DNA of 47,200 nt from Paludibacter propionicigenes (GTDB taxonomy: Bacteria > Bacteroidota > Bacteroidia > Bacteroidales > JAIFNL01): the NCBI GenBank assembly GCA_020721325.1, contig DYNA01000016.1:1-47200 (forward strand). Reading direction: 5' to 3'. A program made the position numbers and the translations under genes. The notes beneath the pieces were generated by a model, which saw nothing but the letters and a program-made list of their open reading frames with translations, was not told where the DNA came from and did no database searches. Shown piece by piece: positions 238 through 17,562 of this stretch. The first letter of the stretch is position 1; each line of letters starts with the position of its first letter.

Positions 238-822
238 ATGAAACAATTTGGATTTCTACTACTTACTATTTTTTTTCTGATAACAGTTTCATGCAGTGAA
301 AATGCGGAAAAATTAATTCAAGGAACATGGACTTTTGAAAAAATTGAGATTTTAAACCATGACGAACTTATTGAAAATCAAATCAATTTTAGCAAAGAAA
401 AATTAGAAAAGGATATTTTAGCAACGAAAAAAAAATTAGATGAAACGGAAGATGAAATAACGCGCGATGTACTGAAATCGAGCCTTTTACAATACGAAAC
501 CGCTTTGAAAGAATTACCCGAACGCGCAAAAGAAGCCAAAGAAAATACTTTAAAAGGTTTTGAAGAACTAAAAGGCAAAGCCAAACTGTTTTTTAAAGAA
601 GACTTTAAATATGAAATGAATTTATCAATGGAAGAAAAGTCGGAAGGTTCATGGAAAATAGACAGCAAAGAAAATATTTTAATGCTTATTGAATCAACTA
701 ATAATCAGACTATTGAGCGAAAACATGAGATTAAAAAAATTTCTAAAGATAAATTAATCATTGTTCGCGTAGAAGAAAAACAAGGCATGGTGATGAAAAT
801 GCAAATGGAATTGAAAAAATAA
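238..822 (+). CDS. Small lipoprotein, lipocalin-like/DUF-type fold possible
   Basis: 194 aa ORF, signal peptide with lipobox (LITVSC), conserved-looking 'IQGTWTFEKI...' start of mature protein. Confidence 0.8.
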   Translation: MKQFGFLLLTIFFLITVSCSENAEKLIQGTWTFEKIEILNHDELIENQINFSKEKLEKDILATKKKLDETEDEITRDVLKSSLLQYETALKELPERAKEAKENTLKGFEELKGKAKLFFKEDFKYEMNLSMEEKSEGSWKIDSKENILMLIESTNNQTIERKHEIKKISKDKLIIVRVEEKQGMVMKMQMELKK

Positions 823-832
823 AAATTTTGGT

Positions 833-879
833 AAAAAAGCTTTCTAAAAAATTATAAAATTTTATTAGAAAGCTTTTTT
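833..879. terminator. Bidirectional Rho-independent-like terminator
   Basis: Perfect inverted repeat AAAAAAGCTTTCTAA (833-847) / TTAGAAAGCTTTTTT (865-879) between convergent genes. Confidence 0.8.
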
Positions 880-881
880 CA

Positions 882-1436
882 TTATTTAATTTTCAGTCCG
901 TCTTTAAAAGGCAGAAAAGTCATAAAATCAGCGTGATGCACAATGTAAGCTTCGGTGGTTCGTTTGACCAAATCGCCTTCGTGTGCGTGAGCGGCTATAA
1001 TGTGGCACACCGCAGCCGGCACACCGCAAGCCTCAGCCAACGAAACGCCCGAAAACGGGTGGCGCAAATATTTTCCGTAATTGCCCTGAACAGCTTTTCC
1101 TTCTGCATTTAATTCATATTCAAGAAGTTTGCCCACATCAGCAAGAATTGCACCCGAAATAAGCACGTCCATATTTACGGGTAAATCTGTACCGTAAAAC
1201 TTATTGATTTGATTTCCGGAATCTCTTGCAATGTGAACCACAGAGCGTTTGTGTTCCATAAAAGTTACGCTCAAATTTGGAACCAACAATGTAAATGGAA
1301 TGGAGTTCAAATCTTCGGGAGTTAATACGCTTTTTTCTAAAGCCAACTTCCAAGTATTGGCGGTTTTTTCTCTCAAATCGGGGTCAGAAATCCAATTCAA
1401 TTCTTCGCCCCAAAGTTTCATAACAGCTTCGTTCAT
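882..1436 (-). CDS. HD-domain family protein (metal-dependent phosphohydrolase-like)
   Basis: 184 aa; HD-like spacing: 'VVHIARDSG', 'ILADVGKLLEYE', 'HIIAAHAHEGD', 'YIVHHADF'. Confidence 0.75.
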   Translation of the reverse strand: MNEAVMKLWGEELNWISDPDLREKTANTWKLALEKSVLTPEDLNSIPFTLLVPNLSVTFMEHKRSVVHIARDSGNQINKFYGTDLPVNMDVLISGAILADVGKLLEYELNAEGKAVQGNYGKYLRHPFSGVSLAEACGVPAAVCHIIAAHAHEGDLVKRTTEAYIVHHADFMTFLPFKDGLKIK

Positions 1437-1446
1437 AGCTATTTAA

Positions 1447-2643
1447 TTATTTGAGTTTATCAATAATTGCTTGAGCCATTTCTTGAGTAGAAGCAGCACC
1501 ATTTTGAATGGCTTCAGGCGCACCGCGCATTTTCATCATGTCGTAAGTGCGTACTTTTCCTTCGGCAATCACTTCGGCAACGGCGGTTCTAATTTTTTTA
1601 GCTTTCTCATTTTCACCCACATAGTCGAGCATCATGCAAGCCGATTCAATCATTGCAATCGGATTTACGATAGATACCTCATAATCAGCATATTTTGGAG
1701 CCGAACCGTGTGTAGGTTCAAAAACAGCTACGCCACTCTCCGACCATTGTGCGCTGCATGCAAAACCCAAACCACCAATTAATCCGGCAAAAGCATCGGA
1801 AACAATATCGCCAAACATGTTGCCGGCAACGATAACTCCGTAATTTTCAGGGTTTTTAGTGAGCCACATCATTTGTGCATCAATATTGGTGTTCCAGAGT
1901 TCTATTTCAGGATATTCGTTTTTTTGCATGGTTTTAGCCATTTTATACATCATGCCCGATGTTTCGCGAATTACATTGGGTTTTTCGGCAAGGGTAACCG
2001 ATTTGTAACCATATTTTCGGGCGTGTTCAAAAGCGGCTTTCAAAATTCTTTCGGTTGCTTTTTTTGTAAAAATACGAGTAGAAATAGAAATTTCTTCTTT
2101 AGGAGTACTACCAAAATTCTTTTTAAATTTTGGGTGAGTCATAAAGGCATCATAAACTTTTTCTTCAGGGTTTGACCATTCAACACCACCGTAAAGTCCT
2201 TCGGTATTTTGTCTGAAAATAACAACATCTACTTCGGGTTCTTCAATTTCAGAACCGAAGCCGCGACGCACAAAATTTAACGGATTTCCTTTGTAAGTTT
2301 TGCACGGACGCGCACAAATGTCGAGATTGAAATGCTGACGCAAACCCACAATTGGGCTTGAATAAACCAACCCCTTGCTTTGAAGTTCGGGAATTAACTC
2401 ATTGGCAGCTTCTTCTTTGGGTTTGGAAGTGATGGCTCCAAACAAACCAATTTTATGTTCTTCTAAAAGTTTTAACGTTCTATCGGGCAGAGGATTACTT
2501 TCTTTGCACCAAAATTCCCAACCTATATCGCCGTTTACATATTCGGCTTCAAAACCGGCTGCATCTAATACTTTTATGGCTTCCTCTAAAACTACTTTTC
2601 CTATGCCATCGCCCGGCATTGCTACGATTGTTCTTTTCGACAT
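1447..2643 (-). CDS. Isocitrate/isopropylmalate dehydrogenase family protein
   Basis: 398 aa; 'MPGDGIGKVV', 'RQNTEGLYGGVEW', 'GNMFGDIVSDAFAGLIGGLGF', 'FEPTHGSAPKYA'. Confidence 0.9.
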   Translation of the reverse strand: MSKRTIVAMPGDGIGKVVLEEAIKVLDAAGFEAEYVNGDIGWEFWCKESNPLPDRTLKLLEEHKIGLFGAITSKPKEEAANELIPELQSKGLVYSSPIVGLRQHFNLDICARPCKTYKGNPLNFVRRGFGSEIEEPEVDVVIFRQNTEGLYGGVEWSNPEEKVYDAFMTHPKFKKNFGSTPKEEISISTRIFTKKATERILKAAFEHARKYGYKSVTLAEKPNVIRETSGMMYKMAKTMQKNEYPEIELWNTNIDAQMMWLTKNPENYGVIVAGNMFGDIVSDAFAGLIGGLGFACSAQWSESGVAVFEPTHGSAPKYADYEVSIVNPIAMIESACMMLDYVGENEKAKKIRTAVAEVIAEGKVRTYDMMKMRGAPEAIQNGAASTQEMAQAIIDKLK

Positions 2644-2775
2644 ACTATAAAATTTTATAAATTTTTAATATTAAAATTGTTTTTTTCAAAAGTTTATTTT
2701 TGTCAAAAATAAGTTTTTTTGTAAAAAAAATAAAATTTTTGACTATGTTATAAAACTATTTTTTTCAAAAAAAAT

Positions 2776-2803
2776 AACCCTTTTTGGAAAACCAAAAAGG
2801 GTT
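2776..2803 (-). terminator. Rho-independent terminator of the DUF349 gene
   Basis: Perfect 12-bp stem AACCCTTTTTGG/CCAAAAAGGGTT, AAAA loop, followed by a T-rich run when read on the minus strand. Confidence 0.85.
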
Positions 2804-2850
2804 CATAAAGTATAACAAAATGAAATTACAAATTCTTAAATATCAACTAA

Positions 2851-4893
2851 TTAAACATCAGAACCATCAATTAAAGCAATTTTTTGTTTGATGTCGTCAG
2901 CTTTTTTCTTAGATGCAAGTATTTGATTTTTAACATCTTGAATTAAAGCATCGGCATTTTTGGTTTTAGCAAAAAAGCCAATATTGTTTTCAAGTGTAAC
3001 AATGTCATTATTAATCTTTTGCAATTGATTTACCAATTTTTCTCTTTCGCCTTTCATTTTACCCGAACCGGCAGAAGATAAATTTTCGATTTTTTGTTTA
3101 AATCTCAAATTGCTTCTTTCGCGTTGGTTTAAATTGATTCGATTGAATTTTGCATCGAGCTGTTTTCTAAATTCGGTAATCAATTCGTCTTTTTTATCAA
3201 AAGGAACATGACCTATGTTTAACCATTCATTTTGAAGATTTTTAAGGGTTTGCATACCTTCTTCAATGTTGTTGGTTTCGTCAAAACTTTTGATTTTTTC
3301 AATAATTTCGAGTTTTAAACGCAAGTTTTCGTCTTGAGTTTTATCAATGGAATTGAAATGTTCTGATTTTTTATTGAAAAAATTATCGCAAGCGGCTCTA
3401 AAACGTTTCCAAACAAGGTCAGAATGTTTGCGTGGAACGGGACCAATTTCTTTCCAGCGTTTTTGCAAAGCAATAAATTCGTCTGTAACTTTTTTCCATT
3501 CGTTGCTTTCTTTCAAACTTTCGGCTTGAACGCAAAGGTCAATTTTGAGTTGTAAATTATTGTTTTGCTCATTTTTCAAACTATCAAAGAAAGCTCTTTT
3601 TTGTTGGAAAAACAAATCGCAAGCATCTCTAAAGCGTTGATATATAGCTGTATTCTCTTTTTTAGGAGCAAAACCAATTAAACGCCAGATTTTTTGAAGT
3701 TCAATAATTTCTTTGGATTTTTCGTCCCATTCTTTAATGGTTTCAGTTCTGTGAGCATTAATTTCGTCCACTTTTTCGCAAATAAGCGTTTTGGCTTTCA
3801 AATTATTATTTTGCTCTTCTTTGAGCGATTCAAAGTGGTCTTGATGGTTTTTATTTATCTGATTTGTAGCTCTTTTGAAGCGTTCCCAGAGTTCATCTTT
3901 TTTCTGAGTAGGCACCGGACCGGCTTCGCGCCAGAGTTCGTGTAATTCTTGCAACTTCTTGAAAGCTAAAATAATACTTGGTTCTAAAAGCAATTCTTCG
4001 GCTTGTTCGCAAAGTTGAGTTTTCACTTCGAGATTTTTTTTCAAATCTAAATCTCTAAGTTCTTGATTTATTTTAACATAAGCATAAAAACTTTCAACGC
4101 TTGCATGGTAATTATCCCAAAGTTCTTTTACCGAATTTTGAGGAACAAGACCTATTTCGCGCCATTCTTGTTGTAAAACTTTAAATTCGTTAAAAGTCTC
4201 ATTAAAAGCTTCTTCCTTATTAATTAAGTGGTTTATTTTTTCAATAATTTGATGCTTTTTAGCCAAATTAGCTTCTTTTTCTTTCTCTAAATTTTTAATA
4301 AATTCGGCTTTTGCATCTTTATAAAGTTTTAAAAGTTGTTTTAAATCTTCTTCAACTTTATCTTTTTCAGGAACAAATGGAAGACGCTCATTTTCTTCAA
4401 GTTCGATATTTTTTTTCTCATGCTCGTCGGCTAATTTTTTTAGTTCTACATTGTAAATTTTGTAAAAATTCAACTTAATAGCCTCAACATCAGCCTTAAT
4501 AGCATTCACTTCGCCTACCGAAATAATTTCTCGCAATTTATCAACCAATTCAGCCTTAGAGAAATTTGAATAATCAATGCTTGGGGTTTCTAACGGCTCG
4601 TCTTCCTCCTCCATTTCTTCTTCAGCCATTGTATTTTCAAAGTGACTAATAATTGGGTCAATCTGTTCCTTTTCAACAGCTATTGAGTTATTAATCACAA
4701 CATTACTTTGTGCTTCCTTGGGTTCAATTTTTTCCGATTCTACCTTTTTACTTTCGGGAAAGTCGTAAACTTTTCCGGTTTTTTCGGCAATTCGTCTTAA
4801 AATTTCATCAGCCGCACTTAATTTTTTTTCGTTTTTTTCTGTAGAAACCGAAGTTTCTTGGTTCGATACCTGATTATTCAAATTTTCGTTCAT
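2851..4893 (-). CDS. DUF349 repeat protein
   Basis: 680 aa; about five repeats with core 'W(R/K)xIGxVP...LWxRFRxAxDxFF' and coiled-coil segments. Confidence 0.85.
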   Translation of the reverse strand: MNENLNNQVSNQETSVSTEKNEKKLSAADEILRRIAEKTGKVYDFPESKKVESEKIEPKEAQSNVVINNSIAVEKEQIDPIISHFENTMAEEEMEEEDEPLETPSIDYSNFSKAELVDKLREIISVGEVNAIKADVEAIKLNFYKIYNVELKKLADEHEKKNIELEENERLPFVPEKDKVEEDLKQLLKLYKDAKAEFIKNLEKEKEANLAKKHQIIEKINHLINKEEAFNETFNEFKVLQQEWREIGLVPQNSVKELWDNYHASVESFYAYVKINQELRDLDLKKNLEVKTQLCEQAEELLLEPSIILAFKKLQELHELWREAGPVPTQKKDELWERFKRATNQINKNHQDHFESLKEEQNNNLKAKTLICEKVDEINAHRTETIKEWDEKSKEIIELQKIWRLIGFAPKKENTAIYQRFRDACDLFFQQKRAFFDSLKNEQNNNLQLKIDLCVQAESLKESNEWKKVTDEFIALQKRWKEIGPVPRKHSDLVWKRFRAACDNFFNKKSEHFNSIDKTQDENLRLKLEIIEKIKSFDETNNIEEGMQTLKNLQNEWLNIGHVPFDKKDELITEFRKQLDAKFNRINLNQRERSNLRFKQKIENLSSAGSGKMKGEREKLVNQLQKINNDIVTLENNIGFFAKTKNADALIQDVKNQILASKKKADDIKQKIALIDGSDV

Positions 4894-7296: not shown

Positions 7297-8628
7297 TTAA
7301 AATAAATTCTTATGATAAATCAAATTAACCTGTTTAATTAAATCCTCCCGATTTGTGGAAGTTACATTGATTAAATAATATGGTTTTTCACCCAAAAGCA
7401 TTTTCCAACGCCAATATAATTGACTGATAGTCTTATCATTACCATTATCATACCACCACGCAGTAAAAAGGTTTTCATTTTTCTCGGTCTTTAAAACAGA
7501 GTAATAAAATTTTATATTTTTAATTTGAATAATTTCTTCTTTTGAAAAATTATAACCGCTTCCTTTCCAACAAATTAATGGGGTATGGTCAGCGGCATAA
7601 AAGTTTACCGGCGGCTTAATATAAATTAATAAATTATCATTTGAAAATTGTAAAACATTATCACTAACTAACTGTTTTTTTAAATTTTCTATTCTAATAT
7701 TGTCATTAAAATTTGCCAATGTAGAACCTCTAAAACTATCTCTATAAAAATTTAAAATACCTAAAAATAAAAGTAGAATAAAAGAAAATATTAAATTTTT
7801 AACTAAAACTTTTTTTGTAAAAATTGAAATAGTCCTTTTTATACCTGAAATATTCTTAAAATTTAAAAATGAAATACGAAAAAAAGCATGAACAAAAAAA
7901 TAAAAAGGCAGTAAAAAATAAATAAAAAAAGATAAAAGCCCAAATAATTCGTGTTCAATGCTATCTATCTGTAAATCAAACAAAACAATACCTATAATTC
8001 GCATAAAATTAGAAAAAATATTCAGAAAAACGGCAACAAAAAGCATCAAAAAAATGTGAATATAATTCGCAACTTTATGAATCTTTTTTTCACGATGCGA
8101 AATAATAAGCAAAGCAAAAAGCAAACCAATTGAAAATAAGTTCATTCCCATACACTCAGGAGCAACTTTGTATGTATTTTGACCAAATAAAATTAGATTT
8201 CCACTGAATTGAATGCCTTCAAAAAAAGGTTTCAAAACCCAAACAGCCGATTTTGTAAGCCACAAACGAATATTGAATCCAAACACTTGAAAAAGGTATG
8301 AAGCCAATGGTGAAGCAATAAAAAGATAAAAAATGGGCAAATTATTGAGTTTTCCAAATAAAAATTCGATTAAAAATAAAAGAAAAAAGAAAAAACCAAA
8401 AAAATACAAGGATTGAATCTTTAGAATAGGGTAAAAAATTAAAAAAAATAGAGAAAAATAAAAATAACGACTACTTTTTGTTCCTTCCGGCAAAAAATAC
8501 ATTGCGAATGGTGATAAAAGTATGGCAAAAACAATTTGATTATTCAGATTCAAATAAAAAAGTAAATTTTGGAAACTTAATAGACAAGCAAATATTAAAA
8601 GCGGAATAAAAATAAATTTTTCTTTCAT
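7297..8628 (-). CDS. xrtN: Exosortase (XrtN-type) with C-terminal EpsI-like domain
   Basis: 443 aa polytopic protein; candidate catalytic Cys 'VAPECMGMN', Arg 'FSNFMRIIGIV', His 'DSIEHELFG'; C-terminal 'DHTPLICWKGSGYNF' resembles EpsI; sits next to a protein with a PEP-CTERM-like tail. Confidence 0.82.
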   Translation of the reverse strand: MKEKFIFIPLLIFACLLSFQNLLFYLNLNNQIVFAILLSPFAMYFLPEGTKSSRYFYFSLFFLIFYPILKIQSLYFFGFFFFLLFLIEFLFGKLNNLPIFYLFIASPLASYLFQVFGFNIRLWLTKSAVWVLKPFFEGIQFSGNLILFGQNTYKVAPECMGMNLFSIGLLFALLIISHREKKIHKVANYIHIFLMLFVAVFLNIFSNFMRIIGIVLFDLQIDSIEHELFGLLSFFIYFLLPFYFFVHAFFRISFLNFKNISGIKRTISIFTKKVLVKNLIFSFILLLFLGILNFYRDSFRGSTLANFNDNIRIENLKKQLVSDNVLQFSNDNLLIYIKPPVNFYAADHTPLICWKGSGYNFSKEEIIQIKNIKFYYSVLKTEKNENLFTAWWYDNGNDKTISQLYWRWKMLLGEKPYYLINVTSTNREDLIKQVNLIYHKNLF

Positions 8629-8698: not shown

Positions 8699-11182
8699 TT
8701 AAAAAAGTTTCTTTAAATAAATAAAAGCAATAAAAACGAGCGACAAAATAATTAAAGCCCATTCATGCGGTTCGGGTACGCCTCCATGCCCCGCAGTTGT
8801 TGCATTTCCGAGCGAATTTTTGTTTTCATCAATATTAAACCGTTCATAATCTTTTTGAGTTTCTAAAACAATTAAACTCGAAACCGGACTAACAATGTAA
8901 GCCTCTTCAGCTAAACTAATTAATTGATTAGTAATAAATTGCTCATTAAAAAAATCTTTTCCGGCTTCTTGCACAATTTTATTGTAAGCGTATAAACGCA
9001 ACAAATGGTCTGGAGCTTTACTCAACTCTTCATTAGCGAACTTTGATATAACCATTTGAGATTCAGATATTAAAACCTGATTGCTATCTAAATCGGGAAC
9101 TAAAATCTCCTGTTTTTTTAACAACATTTCTAAATCAGAAACTGCCCCGTTGTAATAATTAAAAATACCGAATTGTTTTAAAGTTTTCAAATAAGGAGAA
9201 AGCTCACTACCTAAATTATAAAAATTAATTTTCTGGTTATTTTTACTAACGAAATCTGATATTTTTTTAATAAATTCACTTTCACTTAAATCGGAATAAT
9301 TTGGAGAAGATTCTCCGGATTTAGAAATAATTAAAGATTGCTTTAAATTTAATTTGTGTAAAGGTATAAAACTGAAATTCAACGATTTCAATCGATTGAA
9401 CTGTTCTATTGCATTCTCAGAATTAATTTCAATCCATTCATCATAATAAATATATACTTTCTTTTGACTAAAAATTTCGAGAATTTCCAAATATTCATCT
9501 TCCGACCAAGCCGAATTGATGTCCAAATAAATGTTTTCGGGTATAAATTTTAATTTTTTCAGGTGTAAATTTTGAACTTTATATGAATTTTCACCAAAAG
9601 AAAACGAACTTTGAGCTAATTGAGTTTTATCAAATTTAATATTCCAATTCTCATTATAATTTCCGGTATATTCAAAAAATTTAGAATCATTTTTCTTAAA
9701 AAAATCAGGTATTTCAAGATTTGAAACTTGAACTTTCGTATCAAATTTTATTATTAAAGTTTCACGAGCCTTATCAAAATTAGGACCATCAAAAGTAACA
9801 TTCTGTAAAACAAGTCTTTCGCTCTCAAGCAAAAGAGGAATGGTAATTCCAATTTTAAAACGTCTATTTTCAACAGGTGTACATGGAAAAACATTGACAA
9901 CCAGTTGATTACCTTCTTGCCAATGCACTACCGAAGGGTCACGAACTTCTACACTAACAATGGTTTTATATGCGCTATCTGCTTGAGCCTTAGTTGATAA
10001 TCTCGATTTTTCCTCTTTACCATTAATCCAGAGCGAAAGCGAGCTTGCAACAGACCCTTCGGGCAAAGTGAATGTATATAAAGCTTCTTGCTGATTCCAC
10101 TGATATTGATTATTATTTTTTACCGAAATAATTTTTTCTAAATACGCAATTCTATACTCTGGATAAACTCGAATATTGGTTAAAACCTCGGCAGTTTCTA
10201 AGTCTTTTCCAGTCCATAATTTTGCTGTGGCAGCATGTCTGTTTCCGTAAAGTGTTTTTAAAATATTAACTCTTTCATCAACGGAAATATCTAATTTTTC
10301 AGAAAGTAATCCGGCAATTGTAATAAATGGATTATGCAATTTTACTTCGCTAAAAGAGCCAATATTCGGGGCAAACCAATTTCTTTCCGTTCCCATGTCA
10401 TATACTAAATCGCCTTTTAAAATAGATTCAGTAAAGCTATTATTTTCAATATTTTGAGCCAATAAAACCCAAATTGGTAAATCATTGTTTTCATGAGTAA
10501 TAATAGTAGCATTGGTTTGATGAATTTTATTGGCTACGGAAGTATATTGTGCTATAAAAAATACCAGAATAATTATTGGAAAAAAAATTCCGACCGCATA
10601 AGAAATTTTAGAAACTAAAACTTTTTCCATTTTAATAACCCATACCAAAATAGTTATGAGCAATATAATAGGCATTAAAAGGTGAATTGTTAAACCAAAA
10701 AAAAGTAAACCGACAAAAGCAAATGGAATATAAGGCATTAAATACAAAGTAAAATACAATGCCATTATAGTGCCAATTCCTAAAAATAATAAGCTAATAG
10801 TTTGATACAAAGGATTTAGTTTTGGAAAAAAAATAACAACTCCTAATGCAATGTAAGTAGTAAAAAAAGTAAAAATGAGCCAATCCGGCATTTGAGAAAA
10901 TACCGGAATTTCAAGATTTACAGAAAAGCAACTTACAGTAAGTAATGCTAAAAGGAAAAAAAAATGTTTGGCATTTAATTTAAAAATATTCCATCTATTT
11001 ATAACAAAATTATTGATGGCTATAGCTACGAAATACCCCACAGCTATTAAATAAATGGTAAAAAGCAGAATTTCTTCCGACTGTCTCATTTTTGAAAAAA
11101 AATGAAGAATAGCTAATGCTAAAATATTTAATATCAGTCCAATAACTGATAAAAATCGTGAATTTTGATTTTCTGTTTCCAT
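8699..11182 (-). CDS. VIT-domain polytopic membrane protein with PEP-CTERM-like sorting signal (XrtN system VIT protein)
   Basis: 827 aa; multiple N-terminal TM helices; VIT-like region 'AEVLTNIRVYPEYRIAYLEKIISVKN...YTFTLPEGSVASSLSLWINGKEEKSRLSTKAQADSAYKTIV'; C-terminus 'GGVPEPHEWALIILSLVFIAFIYLKKLF' = PEP + TM + basic tail. Confidence 0.85.
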   Translation of the reverse strand: METENQNSRFLSVIGLILNILALAILHFFSKMRQSEEILLFTIYLIAVGYFVAIAINNFVINRWNIFKLNAKHFFFLLALLTVSCFSVNLEIPVFSQMPDWLIFTFFTTYIALGVVIFFPKLNPLYQTISLLFLGIGTIMALYFTLYLMPYIPFAFVGLLFFGLTIHLLMPIILLITILVWVIKMEKVLVSKISYAVGIFFPIIILVFFIAQYTSVANKIHQTNATIITHENNDLPIWVLLAQNIENNSFTESILKGDLVYDMGTERNWFAPNIGSFSEVKLHNPFITIAGLLSEKLDISVDERVNILKTLYGNRHAATAKLWTGKDLETAEVLTNIRVYPEYRIAYLEKIISVKNNNQYQWNQQEALYTFTLPEGSVASSLSLWINGKEEKSRLSTKAQADSAYKTIVSVEVRDPSVVHWQEGNQLVVNVFPCTPVENRRFKIGITIPLLLESERLVLQNVTFDGPNFDKARETLIIKFDTKVQVSNLEIPDFFKKNDSKFFEYTGNYNENWNIKFDKTQLAQSSFSFGENSYKVQNLHLKKLKFIPENIYLDINSAWSEDEYLEILEIFSQKKVYIYYDEWIEINSENAIEQFNRLKSLNFSFIPLHKLNLKQSLIISKSGESSPNYSDLSESEFIKKISDFVSKNNQKINFYNLGSELSPYLKTLKQFGIFNYYNGAVSDLEMLLKKQEILVPDLDSNQVLISESQMVISKFANEELSKAPDHLLRLYAYNKIVQEAGKDFFNEQFITNQLISLAEEAYIVSPVSSLIVLETQKDYERFNIDENKNSLGNATTAGHGGVPEPHEWALIILSLVFIAFIYLKKLF

Positions 11183-11218
11183 AAAAAAATTGGTTTAAAA
11201 ATAATTAATACATAAAAG

Positions 11219-11237
11219 TACTTTGCATTTCAAAGTA
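11219..11237. promoter_or_regulatory. 19-bp palindromic putative operator, copy 2
   Basis: TACTTTG-CATTT-CAAAGTA, 36 bp upstream of the VIT gene start codon; same arms and spacing as 12237-12255. Confidence 0.75.
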
Positions 11238-11252
11238 TAAAAGTAAAAAAAA

Positions 11253-11558
11253 TTACTTACTATTTTCTTGATTTTCAATTAATAACTTAAGATTTTCAAA
11301 ATGTTCCGAAAATACTATTTTGCCTAAATCGCTTACACGATACGATGTATTAGGTTTTTTACCGACAAATTGCTTCCTAATATCAATATATTGAGCTATT
11401 TCGAGAGCTTTTAAATGGCTTGCCAAATTACCATCGCTTAATTCGAGAAGTTCTTTAAGTTCCAGAAAATCAACCCAATCATTAACCATCAAAATAGACA
11501 TAATCCCCAGCCTATATCGGCTTTCAAAAAGCCTGTTCAATTTAGCTATAATATTCAT
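11253..11558 (-). CDS. Winged-helix transcriptional regulator (HTH_34-like)
   Basis: 101 aa; 'RYRLGIMSILMVNDWVDFLELKELLELSDGNLASHLKALEIAQYIDIRKQFVGKKPNTSYRVSDLGK'. Confidence 0.87.
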   Translation of the reverse strand: MNIIAKLNRLFESRYRLGIMSILMVNDWVDFLELKELLELSDGNLASHLKALEIAQYIDIRKQFVGKKPNTSYRVSDLGKIVFSEHFENLKLLIENQENSK

Positions 11559-11575
11559 AATTAGCGAATTATAGA

Positions 11576-12217
11576 TTAGTTTTTGTCGTACTTAAAAAAC
11601 ATAATTGCTCCATACAAAATGTGCAAAACACCAAATCCAACCATCCAAAAAAACAGCCCGTACCCAATAAAAAAAGCGGTAATTAAACCTAAAATAATTT
11701 CGGAAATTCCTAAAAAACGAATATCGGAAAAAGTATAATGGCTTGCATTGATTAAAGCCAATCCGTAAAAAATTAAAGTAACAGATGGCAAAATACCAAC
11801 AATACCGTGCCAAAGCAGAATTAATCCAAAAAAACCTCCGGCAAAAAGAGGGATAAACAAATTAATAAGCATTCGTTTAGTAGTAAAATTCCATACCTGA
11901 ATATTTTTCTTTTTAGCTTTGCGCCAAGTAAAATAAAACGCGGAAATTAAAGCCAAAATTAAAACGGTTGCAGCATCTAAAAAAATGAATAATAAAAATT
12001 TATTTCTAATTTCTGAGTTTGCAAAATAAAGTATTTCGCGGGTTTGCCCGTAGTAAAATGTTTTACCGAAATAAATATAAGCTGCCACCGCACCAAATAT
12101 GGCAAAAATGCCGGCGAAAACGCCTGAAAGTCCGCTCAATGAAAGAAATCGACTTGATTTTTCCATCATTGTTTTTATTTCGTCTATACTATTCAAATAA
12201 TATTGCTTATTTTCCAT
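11576..12217 (-). CDS. Integral membrane protein of the exosortase locus (start trimmed to MENKQYY...)
   Basis: ORF track begins at 12331, but the ATG at 12217 lies just downstream of the palindrome 12237-12255; predicted about 6 TM helices. Confidence 0.75.
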   Translation of the reverse strand: MENKQYYLNSIDEIKTMMEKSSRFLSLSGLSGVFAGIFAIFGAVAAYIYFGKTFYYGQTREILYFANSEIRNKFLLFIFLDAATVLILALISAFYFTWRKAKKKNIQVWNFTTKRMLINLFIPLFAGGFFGLILLWHGIVGILPSVTLIFYGLALINASHYTFSDIRFLGISEIILGLITAFFIGYGLFFWMVGFGVLHILYGAIMFFKYDKN

Positions 12218-12236
12218 AATTTTTAAATAATAAAAG

Positions 12237-12255
12237 TACTTTGAATTGCAAAGTA
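12237..12255. promoter_or_regulatory. 19-bp palindromic putative operator, copy 1
   Basis: TACTTTG-AATTG-CAAAGTA, 19 bp upstream of the ATG at 12217. Confidence 0.75.
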
Positions 12256-12526
12256 AATGATAAAAATCGAATTTAAAAAATATTTTTTGAAAAAAAATAA
12301 AAATATTTTCTAAAATCTTAAATATTAACAATTTAAAAGAGATTTATTTTTCAAAAAAAATTGCCTACTATTAAATTTAAAATTATATTTGGAAAAAAAA
12401 ATTTGAAATCAATGTGGGTATATATTAAATATAATGATTTGATTGATTGAATCTTAGAATATTAGTACAAAACTTTTTTTCTAAAAAAAAAATTTAAAAA
12501 AGATAAAAAAATTAATTATTAATACA

Positions 12527-14458
12527 ATGCAACAACATTCAAATTTAAAAAGTATTCTAAAAAAAATAAGCCAAAAAATATTTTTTGGCTTTAATAATCT
12601 TTCAATAAAGCATAAGTTATTAATAATCATAAGTTTATTATTTTTAATTAGTTTTTCAACATTAACAATATTTTCGGCAATAACATTAAAAAGTGCCTTA
12701 TTTGAAAATTCACAAAAAGAATCAATTTCCAAAGCAGAGAAATATGCAAGTCAAATAAAATCAGAACTTGAAGCCGCTTTAAATTCAGCGAAAACACTCT
12801 CTCAGGCACTTTCAACCTCAAATTTAACAGCCGATAAAATAAATTTTGAGCGAAAACAAGCAATTAAAGTATGTGCTGAGGTTTTAAAAAACAATACTCA
12901 ATTTGTCGGTTTAGGCTTTTTATACAAAAAAAATGCCTTTGACGGTTTGGATTCACTTCATAAAGATTCCATTGGTTCTCAAATAGATGGTCAATTTACT
13001 CCTTATGTATATATCGAAGATGGCAAAATAAAAATTCAGGTATTAAACCAAGAAGAATTACCGAGTTTTGATACAATCGAAAGCATTTTAGAACCTTATC
13101 CTTTTCAGATAAACAAAAAAAAGATTATAGTTATTACTGCCTTAGCTCCGATAATAAAACAGTCAAAATTAGTTGGTTATATGGGAATTGATATGAACAC
13201 AAAGCACTTATCGAAAATAATAACCAACCAAAATGATTTGCAAAATCAAATAAAAGTAGAATTAATAGGCAAAAATGGAATTATAGCCTCAAATCGCAAC
13301 CAGAATGAAGATGAAAAGAATAACTCAATCAAAAAAAATAATGAAAACGATTTTACCAAAAAATATTTTACTAAAAACAAAATAAAAAACGGTATTAGTT
13401 ATACCGATAGCACATTAATAGTATTTTCACCATTTAGAATAGGAAATACAAAGACCGACTGGTTAATAAGTCTAACTGTGCCTATTGACCAAATAATGCA
13501 AAAAGCCAATAAAGCATTGATTATAGAAGGCAGCATCAGTCTCTTTTTTATGTTGGTTTTAATAATTGGTTTAATTTTTTTAATCAACTATTTGTTTTCA
13601 CCGTTATATAATTTTATAAGAAATGTAGAAGAAGTTTCTACCGGAAAATTAAATGTTAAAATAGAAACCAATAGTAGCGACGAATTAGGCAAATTGGGAC
13701 GAGCCACCCAAGAAATGATACGCCGATTAGCCCGAATAATAGGGCAAATAAACAAAACCAGCCTCGATTTGGTCAAAGCTGGCAGCCTGATACAACAAAA
13801 TTCAAAATCAGTAGCCAATGGCGCAACCAATCAAGCTTCAGCCATTGAAGAAATTTCAACCTCTATAGAAGAATTGCTTGCAGGCATCAATCAGAATAAT
13901 ATCAATTCAAAATCGACAGAAAAAAAAGCAAACCTTGCTGCATCTCAAATACAAATTGTAAATAAAGCCTTTGAAAAAACTGCCGAAGTAATGGAAACCG
14001 TTACAGAGAAAATACAAGTAATCAATGAGATAGCAGCAAAAACCGACTTATTGGCTATCAATGCAGCCATAGAAGCCGCCCGAGCAGGGGAGCAAGGAAA
14101 AGGTTTTGCAGTGGTAGCAAACGAGGTAAGAAAACTTGCCGAGCAAAGTATGAAAGCGGCAAAAGAAATCAACCAACTAAGCACAAAAAGTGTGAAAACA
14201 ACTTCCGATTCGGTAAAACTTCTTATGGCAGTAATTCCAATAATAAAAGAAACAGCCAATCTGGTAAAAGAAATTTCATTAAGCACAGAGGAACAAAATA
14301 GCGGTATCGAATTGATAAGCAAAACATTAATGCAATTAACTCAAGTAACACAACAAAATGCAGAGTCATCTGAAAATCTGGCAGAACAAGCGAATGTATT
14401 TGAAAAGTATTCAAAAGAATTAAAAAAAGTAATCAAGCATTTAAAAAACGAAAAATAA
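12527..14458 (+). CDS. Methyl-accepting chemotaxis protein (Cache-like sensor, HAMP, MCP signalling domain)
   Basis: 643 aa; hairpin tip '[43 protein letters not shown]'. Confidence 0.95.
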
Positions 14459-16350: not shown

Positions 16351-17562
16351 TTATTCAAAAGTAAGAATAGCATCTTTAATTTTTGAAACGGCTTCCATCA
16401 ATTGCTCTTCGTTAATAACCAAAGGCGGTGCAAAGCGAATGATATGCCCATGAGTAGGTTTAGCCAAAACGCCATGTTTAGCCATTTCTACACAAACGTC
16501 CCAAGCTTCTTTTCCATTTTTGGGTTTGATAATTACGGCATTTAAAAGTCCTTTTCCGCGAACCAACTCAATCATATCGGATTGAATAGCACGCATTTGA
16601 GTACGGAAAATTTCGCCCAAACGTTGAGCATTTTCGGCAAGTTTTTCTTCTTTCACTACGGTAAGAGCGGCAATAGCTACTTTAGCAGCCAAAGGATTTC
16701 CACCAAAGGTAGAGCCATGCTCGCCGGGTTTAATGGTTAGCATAATTTCATTGTTCGCCAAAACAGCCGAAACCGGAAGCACACCGCCCGAAAGCGCTTT
16801 TCCAAGAATCAAAATATCGGGTTTTACACCTTCCCAATCCACAGCCAAAAGTTTTCCGGTACGTGCAATTCCGGTTTGAACTTCGTCGGCAATGAACAAA
16901 ACATTGTTTGCTTTGCACAAATCGTAAGCTTTTTTCAAATAACCTTCGTCGGGAACATATACACCGGCTTCGCCTTGAATAGGTTCAACTAAAAATCCGG
17001 CTACATTGGGGTCTTTGAGTTCATTTTCGAGAGCAGCCAAATCATTGTAAGGAATTTGCACAAAACCGGGTGTAAATGGACCGTAATGATTGTAAGCATC
17101 AGGGTCTGTGGACATAGAAATAATTGTTACCGTTCTACCGTGAAAGTTATTTTCGGCTACTATTATTTTGGCTTTGTTTTGTTCTATGCCTTTTACTTTG
17201 TAAGCCCATTTTCTGCAAAGTTTAATGGCGGTTTCGTCGGCTTCAGCACCGGTATTCATAGGCAAAACTTTGTCGTAACCAAAATATTTGGTAACAAATT
17301 CTTCGTATTCGCCCAACGAACTGTTGTAAAAAGCACGCGAGGTAAGCGTCAATTTTTGAGCTTGCTCGGTAAGTGCCGAAATAATTCTTGGGTGGCAATG
17401 TCCTTGATTAACAGCGGAATAAGCCGACAAAAAGTCGAAATATTTTTTTCCGTCTGTATCCCAAACATACACACCTTCCCCTTTATCGAGAACAACAGGC
17501 AGCGGATGATAATTGTGCGCTCCGTATTTATCTTCTCTTGCAATATAATCTTGTTGATTCAT
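16351..17562 (-). CDS. rocD: Ornithine--oxo-acid transaminase
   Basis: 403 aa; '[48 protein letters not shown]', '[17 protein letters not shown]', '[17 protein letters not shown]', '[11 protein letters not shown]'. Confidence 0.95.

Follow-up and report, generated by a model that had tools for sequence, protein, structure and literature searches.

The locus examined here raises a straightforward question: what purpose is served by two copies of one perfect palindrome that bracket the genes for a small winged-helix regulator and a membrane protein, next to an exosortase gene pair? It lies in a stretch of 47,200 nucleotides of Paludibacter propionicigenes (contig DYNA01000016.1; hereafter, the window). 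An earlier note on this DNA had proposed that the 101-aa regulator binds both palindromes, autoregulates its operon and controls the VIT/exosortase genes, and comparative genomics lends this sequence-based prediction strong support.

The genes concerned are encoded on the minus strand in the order first site (O1), membrane protein, regulator, second site (O2), XrtN-VIT protein and exosortase N. The regulator (11253-11558, minus strand) is a member of the HTH_34 family, with residues 16-94 matching positions 2-80 of the 80-position PF13601 profile at 93.7 bits (curated cut-off, 27). It is the only HTH_34 protein in the genome, it lacks a sensor domain, and a sequence search found a single solved relative, PH1061 (1ub9). 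A 213-aa integral membrane protein, recognized from its open reading frame and hydropathy, is encoded in the same operon (11576-12217, minus strand). It was found in all 80 orthologous loci as one homologous cluster, and its AF2 model is a helical bundle (pLDDT 89), for which a fold search against the PDB gave nothing significant and family searches gave no convincing family. Because it is conserved beside a regulator without a sensor domain, it is a plausible source of input and hence a candidate sensor. Beyond O2 are the genes for a VIT-domain protein with a C-terminal VPEP-type sorting segment (8699-11182, minus strand; TIGR04477, 877 bits, cut-off 250) and for exosortase N, or XrtN (7297-8628, minus strand; TIGR04476, 301 bits, cut-off 200). 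The two are adjacent and both score above their curated cut-offs, and they form a standard XrtN-VIT/XrtN pair; exosortase systems of this kind serve protein sorting and have been little studied. On the other side, a divergent gene of 643 aa (12527-14458), which resembles a methyl-accepting chemotaxis-type sensor by sequence, shares its intergenic region with O1.

Both palindromes are exact copies of TACTTTG-N5-CAAAGTA, namely TACTTTGCATTTCAAAGTA at 11219-11237 and TACTTTGAATTGCAAAGTA at 12237-12255, and each is immediately preceded on the plus strand by TAAAAG. The earlier note had described them in just these terms, as two identical copies without a third in the window, and the sequence agrees; the window holds one further copy with two mismatches, at 16678. 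Both sites are also close upstream of start codons, as had been claimed, the O1 palindrome about 20 bp before the membrane-protein ATG (12217) on the minus strand and the O2 palindrome about 37 bp before the XrtN-VIT ATG (11182), just past the stop codon of the regulator gene. Across the full 4.36-Mb genome, which is 91% complete, a scan recovered only these two exact copies, bracketing the regulator gene rather than abundant at random positions, and no copy of a reversed control pattern. When up to two mismatches were allowed, 52 palindromes were counted versus 49 matches to the reversed control, which is the level expected by chance, and the three near-copies examined were all inside open frames. 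Near-matches elsewhere in the genome were consequently rejected as extra targets.

Orthologues of the regulator occur throughout the class at about 43-63% identity (64% for the Flavobacterium johnsoniae protein), and comparison of their loci indicates that the sites travel with the gene. In 72 of 80 orthologous loci, one site precedes the membrane-protein gene and another lies just after the regulator, and at least one site is present in all 80; most of 29 further orthologous loci have the pair in the same positions. Two relatives of the same genus, with VIT proteins 57-59% identical, have kept the regulator and both sites, and the slot behind the second site holds XrtN-VIT/XrtN there as it does here. 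A first scan of genome contigs with the VIT protein as query had found no relatives; alignment of the regulator did work. Among the orthologues, the residues DGNLASH of the recognition region are almost invariant, as are the arms of the operator.

The conserved operator is longer than the palindrome, reading RCTTTG-N5-CAAAGT-N-CTTT. In the sequence logo (111 sites upstream, 98 downstream), the ACTTTG and CAAAGT arms are near-invariant around an A+T-rich spacer, an invariance that is partly built in since sites were gathered with at most one core mismatch, which leaves the flanks and the extension unaffected. The CTTT one base past the right arm is strongly conserved, on that side only. In this genome the extended form, ACTTTG-N5-CAAAGTACTTT, is exact only at O1 (12233-12255, minus strand, with CTTT at 12233-12236), which precedes the membrane-protein and regulator genes, and at O2 (11215-11237, minus strand, with CTTT at 11215-11218), which precedes XrtN-VIT/XrtN; the next best match has two mismatches. 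Extended operators numbered 63 in 22 chosen genomes, and the reversed control had no matches there.

The upstream sites coincide with a promoter consensus. Core promoters of Bacteroidota carry a -7 box, TAnnTTTG, at -12 to -5 (PMC9723704), and a -33 element, TTTG (PMC2483708). Just before the palindrome a T is present in 98% of upstream sites, and TTTG occurs at -24 to -21, about 20 bp further upstream. Since this T and TTTG complete a -33/-7 promoter, the left arm in gene sense can be read as the -7 box, with the predicted start inside the operator. TAnnTTTG on the left arm together with the -33 TTTG was found in 100 of 111 upstream sites, such that operators of the O1 type overlap the core promoter predicted for the operon that includes the regulator. 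In the window, the putative -7 box is TTACTTTG (12249-12256, minus strand) and the putative -33 element (12276-12279, minus strand) reads TTTT rather than the TTTG of most relatives. Transcription is predicted to start near 12244, which would leave some 26 untranslated bases at the 5′ end, close to the reported median of 24 in Flavobacterium psychrophilum (PMC9723704). Because the -7 box falls on the left arm, bound regulator should block RNA polymerase at O1. The earlier note had also suggested that binding blocks the promoter, and this idea survives with a different -7 box, the one on the left arm. Its own candidate, TACTTTTA, which follows the right arm, was rejected: it is conserved as C-T-T-T and ends without the final G in 98-100% of sites (G in just 0-2%), and the positions taken to be free in it are conserved.

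The second site is associated with a different type of promoter. At downstream sites the conserved -33/-7 pair was not seen (98 sites), and a T7 tract at a fixed distance upstream of the operator, at positions -14 to -8, is found in 97 of 98 cases versus 4 of 111 upstream sites; in the window, this tract lies at 11245-11251 on the minus strand. In four loci (L121, L128, L135 and L147), the gene after the regulator has no operator and the T7 tract is missing too. A plain intrinsic terminator is not supported as an explanation of the tract, for no G+C-rich stem is visible by eye in the flanks, although L219-L221 do have a terminator-like stem ahead of it. A role as polymerase roadblock was weighed as well, but not taken up. 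T7 tracts are also found at some unlinked operators, and in L229 a DUF4153-like gene is preceded by two tandem extended operators about 100 bp apart, which represent the two promoter types.

A link to the exosortase genes is also seen in other genomes. The regulator is present in all 13 genomes of the class sample that have XrtN-VIT above its cut-off. Across all samples, regulator-bearing genomes contain 18 XrtN-VIT loci, and at 13 of them an operator whose core has one mismatch or none lies no more than 200 bp from the VIT gene. This operator is linked to the regulator in six (G000, G740, G851, G542, G588 and G460) and unlinked in six others (G174, G246, G325, G584, G396 and G645), with a weaker unlinked site in G468. 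In G445 the regulator and operator are one gene upstream of XrtN-VIT, and in G555, G503, G674 and G572 no operator was found within 200 bp. Neither of the XrtN-VIT loci of two regulator-less genomes (G109 and G810) has the operator. A control set of upstream regions was small (52) and contained the true module L024, and was not used as a null.

Taken as a whole, we consider it likely, at a probability of roughly 85%, that the palindromes are operators of the HTH_34 regulator, with O1 serving autorepression, O2 serving exosortase control and the membrane protein being the likely input. The regulator is probably a winged-helix autorepressor. The centres of the two ACTTTG half-sites are 11 bp apart, or one helical turn, and the conserved inverted repeat suggests that a homodimer would read both on one face of the DNA. 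At O1, such a dimer would sit over the -7 box and over the point where transcription of the membrane-protein/regulator operon is predicted to begin, thereby repressing the operon, and at O2 it would control the adjacent XrtN-VIT and XrtN genes. Repression may be relieved by the co-encoded membrane protein, as the likely signal input that releases binding.

At O2, where the conserved -33/-7 pair was not seen, the direction of regulation is uncertain. It is conceivable that the regulator acts as an activator, or in a dual capacity, at this site, the dimer and T7 tract together helping to recruit polymerase while O1 is autorepressed. Such an arrangement would suit the difference between the promoters (97 of the 98 downstream sites have the T7 tract, and 100 of the 111 upstream ones a -33 TTG with T at -1), yet the operator sequence is the same at both sites, and most of the XrtN-VIT sites that are unlinked overlap a -7 box, where repression is expected. 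Activation at O2 is considered unlikely, if the most serious of the alternatives.

Binding by the HTH_34 protein is itself a prediction, and the sites could in principle belong to another transcription factor, the regulator being a bystander in a conserved operon. The distribution of the palindrome across 395 genomes of the class bears upon this. In counts compiled by hand from two listings, the strict form WACTTTG-N5-CAAAGTW was present in 102 of 128 genomes (80%) with a strong orthologue of the regulator (E below 1e-20) versus 30 of 267 (11%) without one, an odds ratio of 31 with a p-value of 5e-42 that is nominal, the genomes being related and not independent. The reversed control was unassociated with the orthologue (p 0.07, equally nominal). 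The 26 of 128 orthologue-bearing genomes that lack the strict palindrome do so partly because its first and last bases vary. Its presence in 30 genomes without a strong orthologue might seem to favour a different binding protein, but this 11% is below the rate at which those genomes contain the control (54 of 267) and far from the 80% of orthologue-bearing ones. Unlinked operators, too, co-occur with the regulator elsewhere in the same genome, and the XrtN-VIT loci of the regulator-less genomes are without the site, all of which makes a bystander role very improbable. The inverted-repeat form of the palindromes, and the intergenic position of O2 beside a T tract, might also suggest a mobile repeat or an RNA element such as a hairpin or terminator. 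This notion has hardly any credibility, given that the arms are near-invariant rather than covarying and are in fixed register with the -7 box, that the T tract is upstream of the repeat rather than downstream, and that a sequence with only two copies in the genome is not a dispersed repeat.

If the palindromes are operators of the HTH_34 regulator, its reach extends beyond XrtN. The gene after the second position varies, with DUF4153 first in 39 of 80 loci and CreD in 10 of 80 (no CreD was found elsewhere in the present genome), and Coq4-like genes, DUF1361 genes or c48, an unnamed family with proteins of about 415 aa, in others. In Chryseobacterium-type strings, small membrane proteins or a metallophosphoesterase are encoded there. 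Unlinked operators precede genes for Coq4-like, DUF4153, DUF1361, polysaccharide-export, c48, MSEP-CTERM and XrtN-VIT proteins. The c48 family, which has no Pfam match, directly follows the regulator without an operator in L121, L128 and L135, and is unlinked with an operator of its own in L226 and L228. In L024, of the same genus as other Flavobacterium-like loci, the regulator module is followed by exosortase K and an MSEP-CTERM protein in the same slot, and then by another operator and a Coq4-like gene (3303-3803, 520-3306 and 10-465 of that locus, minus strand). Together with the XrtN-VIT loci, this places two different exosortase/VIT systems under one operator; the survey of MSEP-CTERM used short flanks and does not give an operator frequency for that system. 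One may tentatively propose, at somewhat less than even odds, a widespread and previously undescribed envelope-control module of the Bacteroidia, in which a membrane sensor, an HTH_34 repressor and a pair of operators of two promoter types would govern swappable envelope systems. Those plugged into it, in cis or in trans, would include DUF4153, CreD, XrtK/MSEP-CTERM, XrtN-VIT/XrtN, Coq4-like proteins and polysaccharide export.

Much of this follows familiar patterns. Autoregulated MarR/ArsR-type repressors have palindromic operators that overlap the promoters of their own operons and of neighbouring genes, and the present arrangement resembles theirs, but differs in its overlap with the Bacteroidota-specific -7 box, in the co-encoded, conserved membrane protein, and in the one-sided CTTT extension and the T7 tract of the second site, both unusual. 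PadR regulators with DUF1700 proteins likewise pair a small cytoplasmic regulator with a co-encoded membrane protein, and the likeness lies in an operon where a regulator that lacks a sensor accompanies an integral membrane protein; the protein families are unrelated, however, and the pairing here is known from gene adjacency and membrane prediction. With the HTH_34 family (PF13601, MarR/ArsR-like; 1ub9/PH1061) the regulator shares its form as a small stand-alone DNA-binding domain, while the present analysis predicts, for a Bacteroidia subgroup, an operator, its overlap with a promoter and a set of targets. The protein family and the principle are thus known; a published account of an operator, target or regulon for this subgroup, or of its exosortase link, was not found in the open-access literature searched. 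XrtN/VIT (TIGR04476/TIGR04477) and XrtK/MSEP-CTERM (TIGR04287/TIGR04286) are established systems that were found here under the same operator, and the same open-access literature yielded no regulator of either; a function or trigger of these systems was not described in it.

From a palindrome with two copies in one genome, the analysis has thus arrived at a predicted regulon that spans the class, with an operator that is defined and targets that can be tested. If the envelope-control module proves true, its regulator would be the first to be identified for exosortase systems of the XrtN and XrtK types. The membrane protein encoded beside it is conserved, has no recognised fold and is a candidate for the sensor. 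Finally, that both exosortase systems may be under one regulator, along with CreD, DUF4153 and polysaccharide export, hints at the cell state that the two systems serve and offers a means of turning them on.
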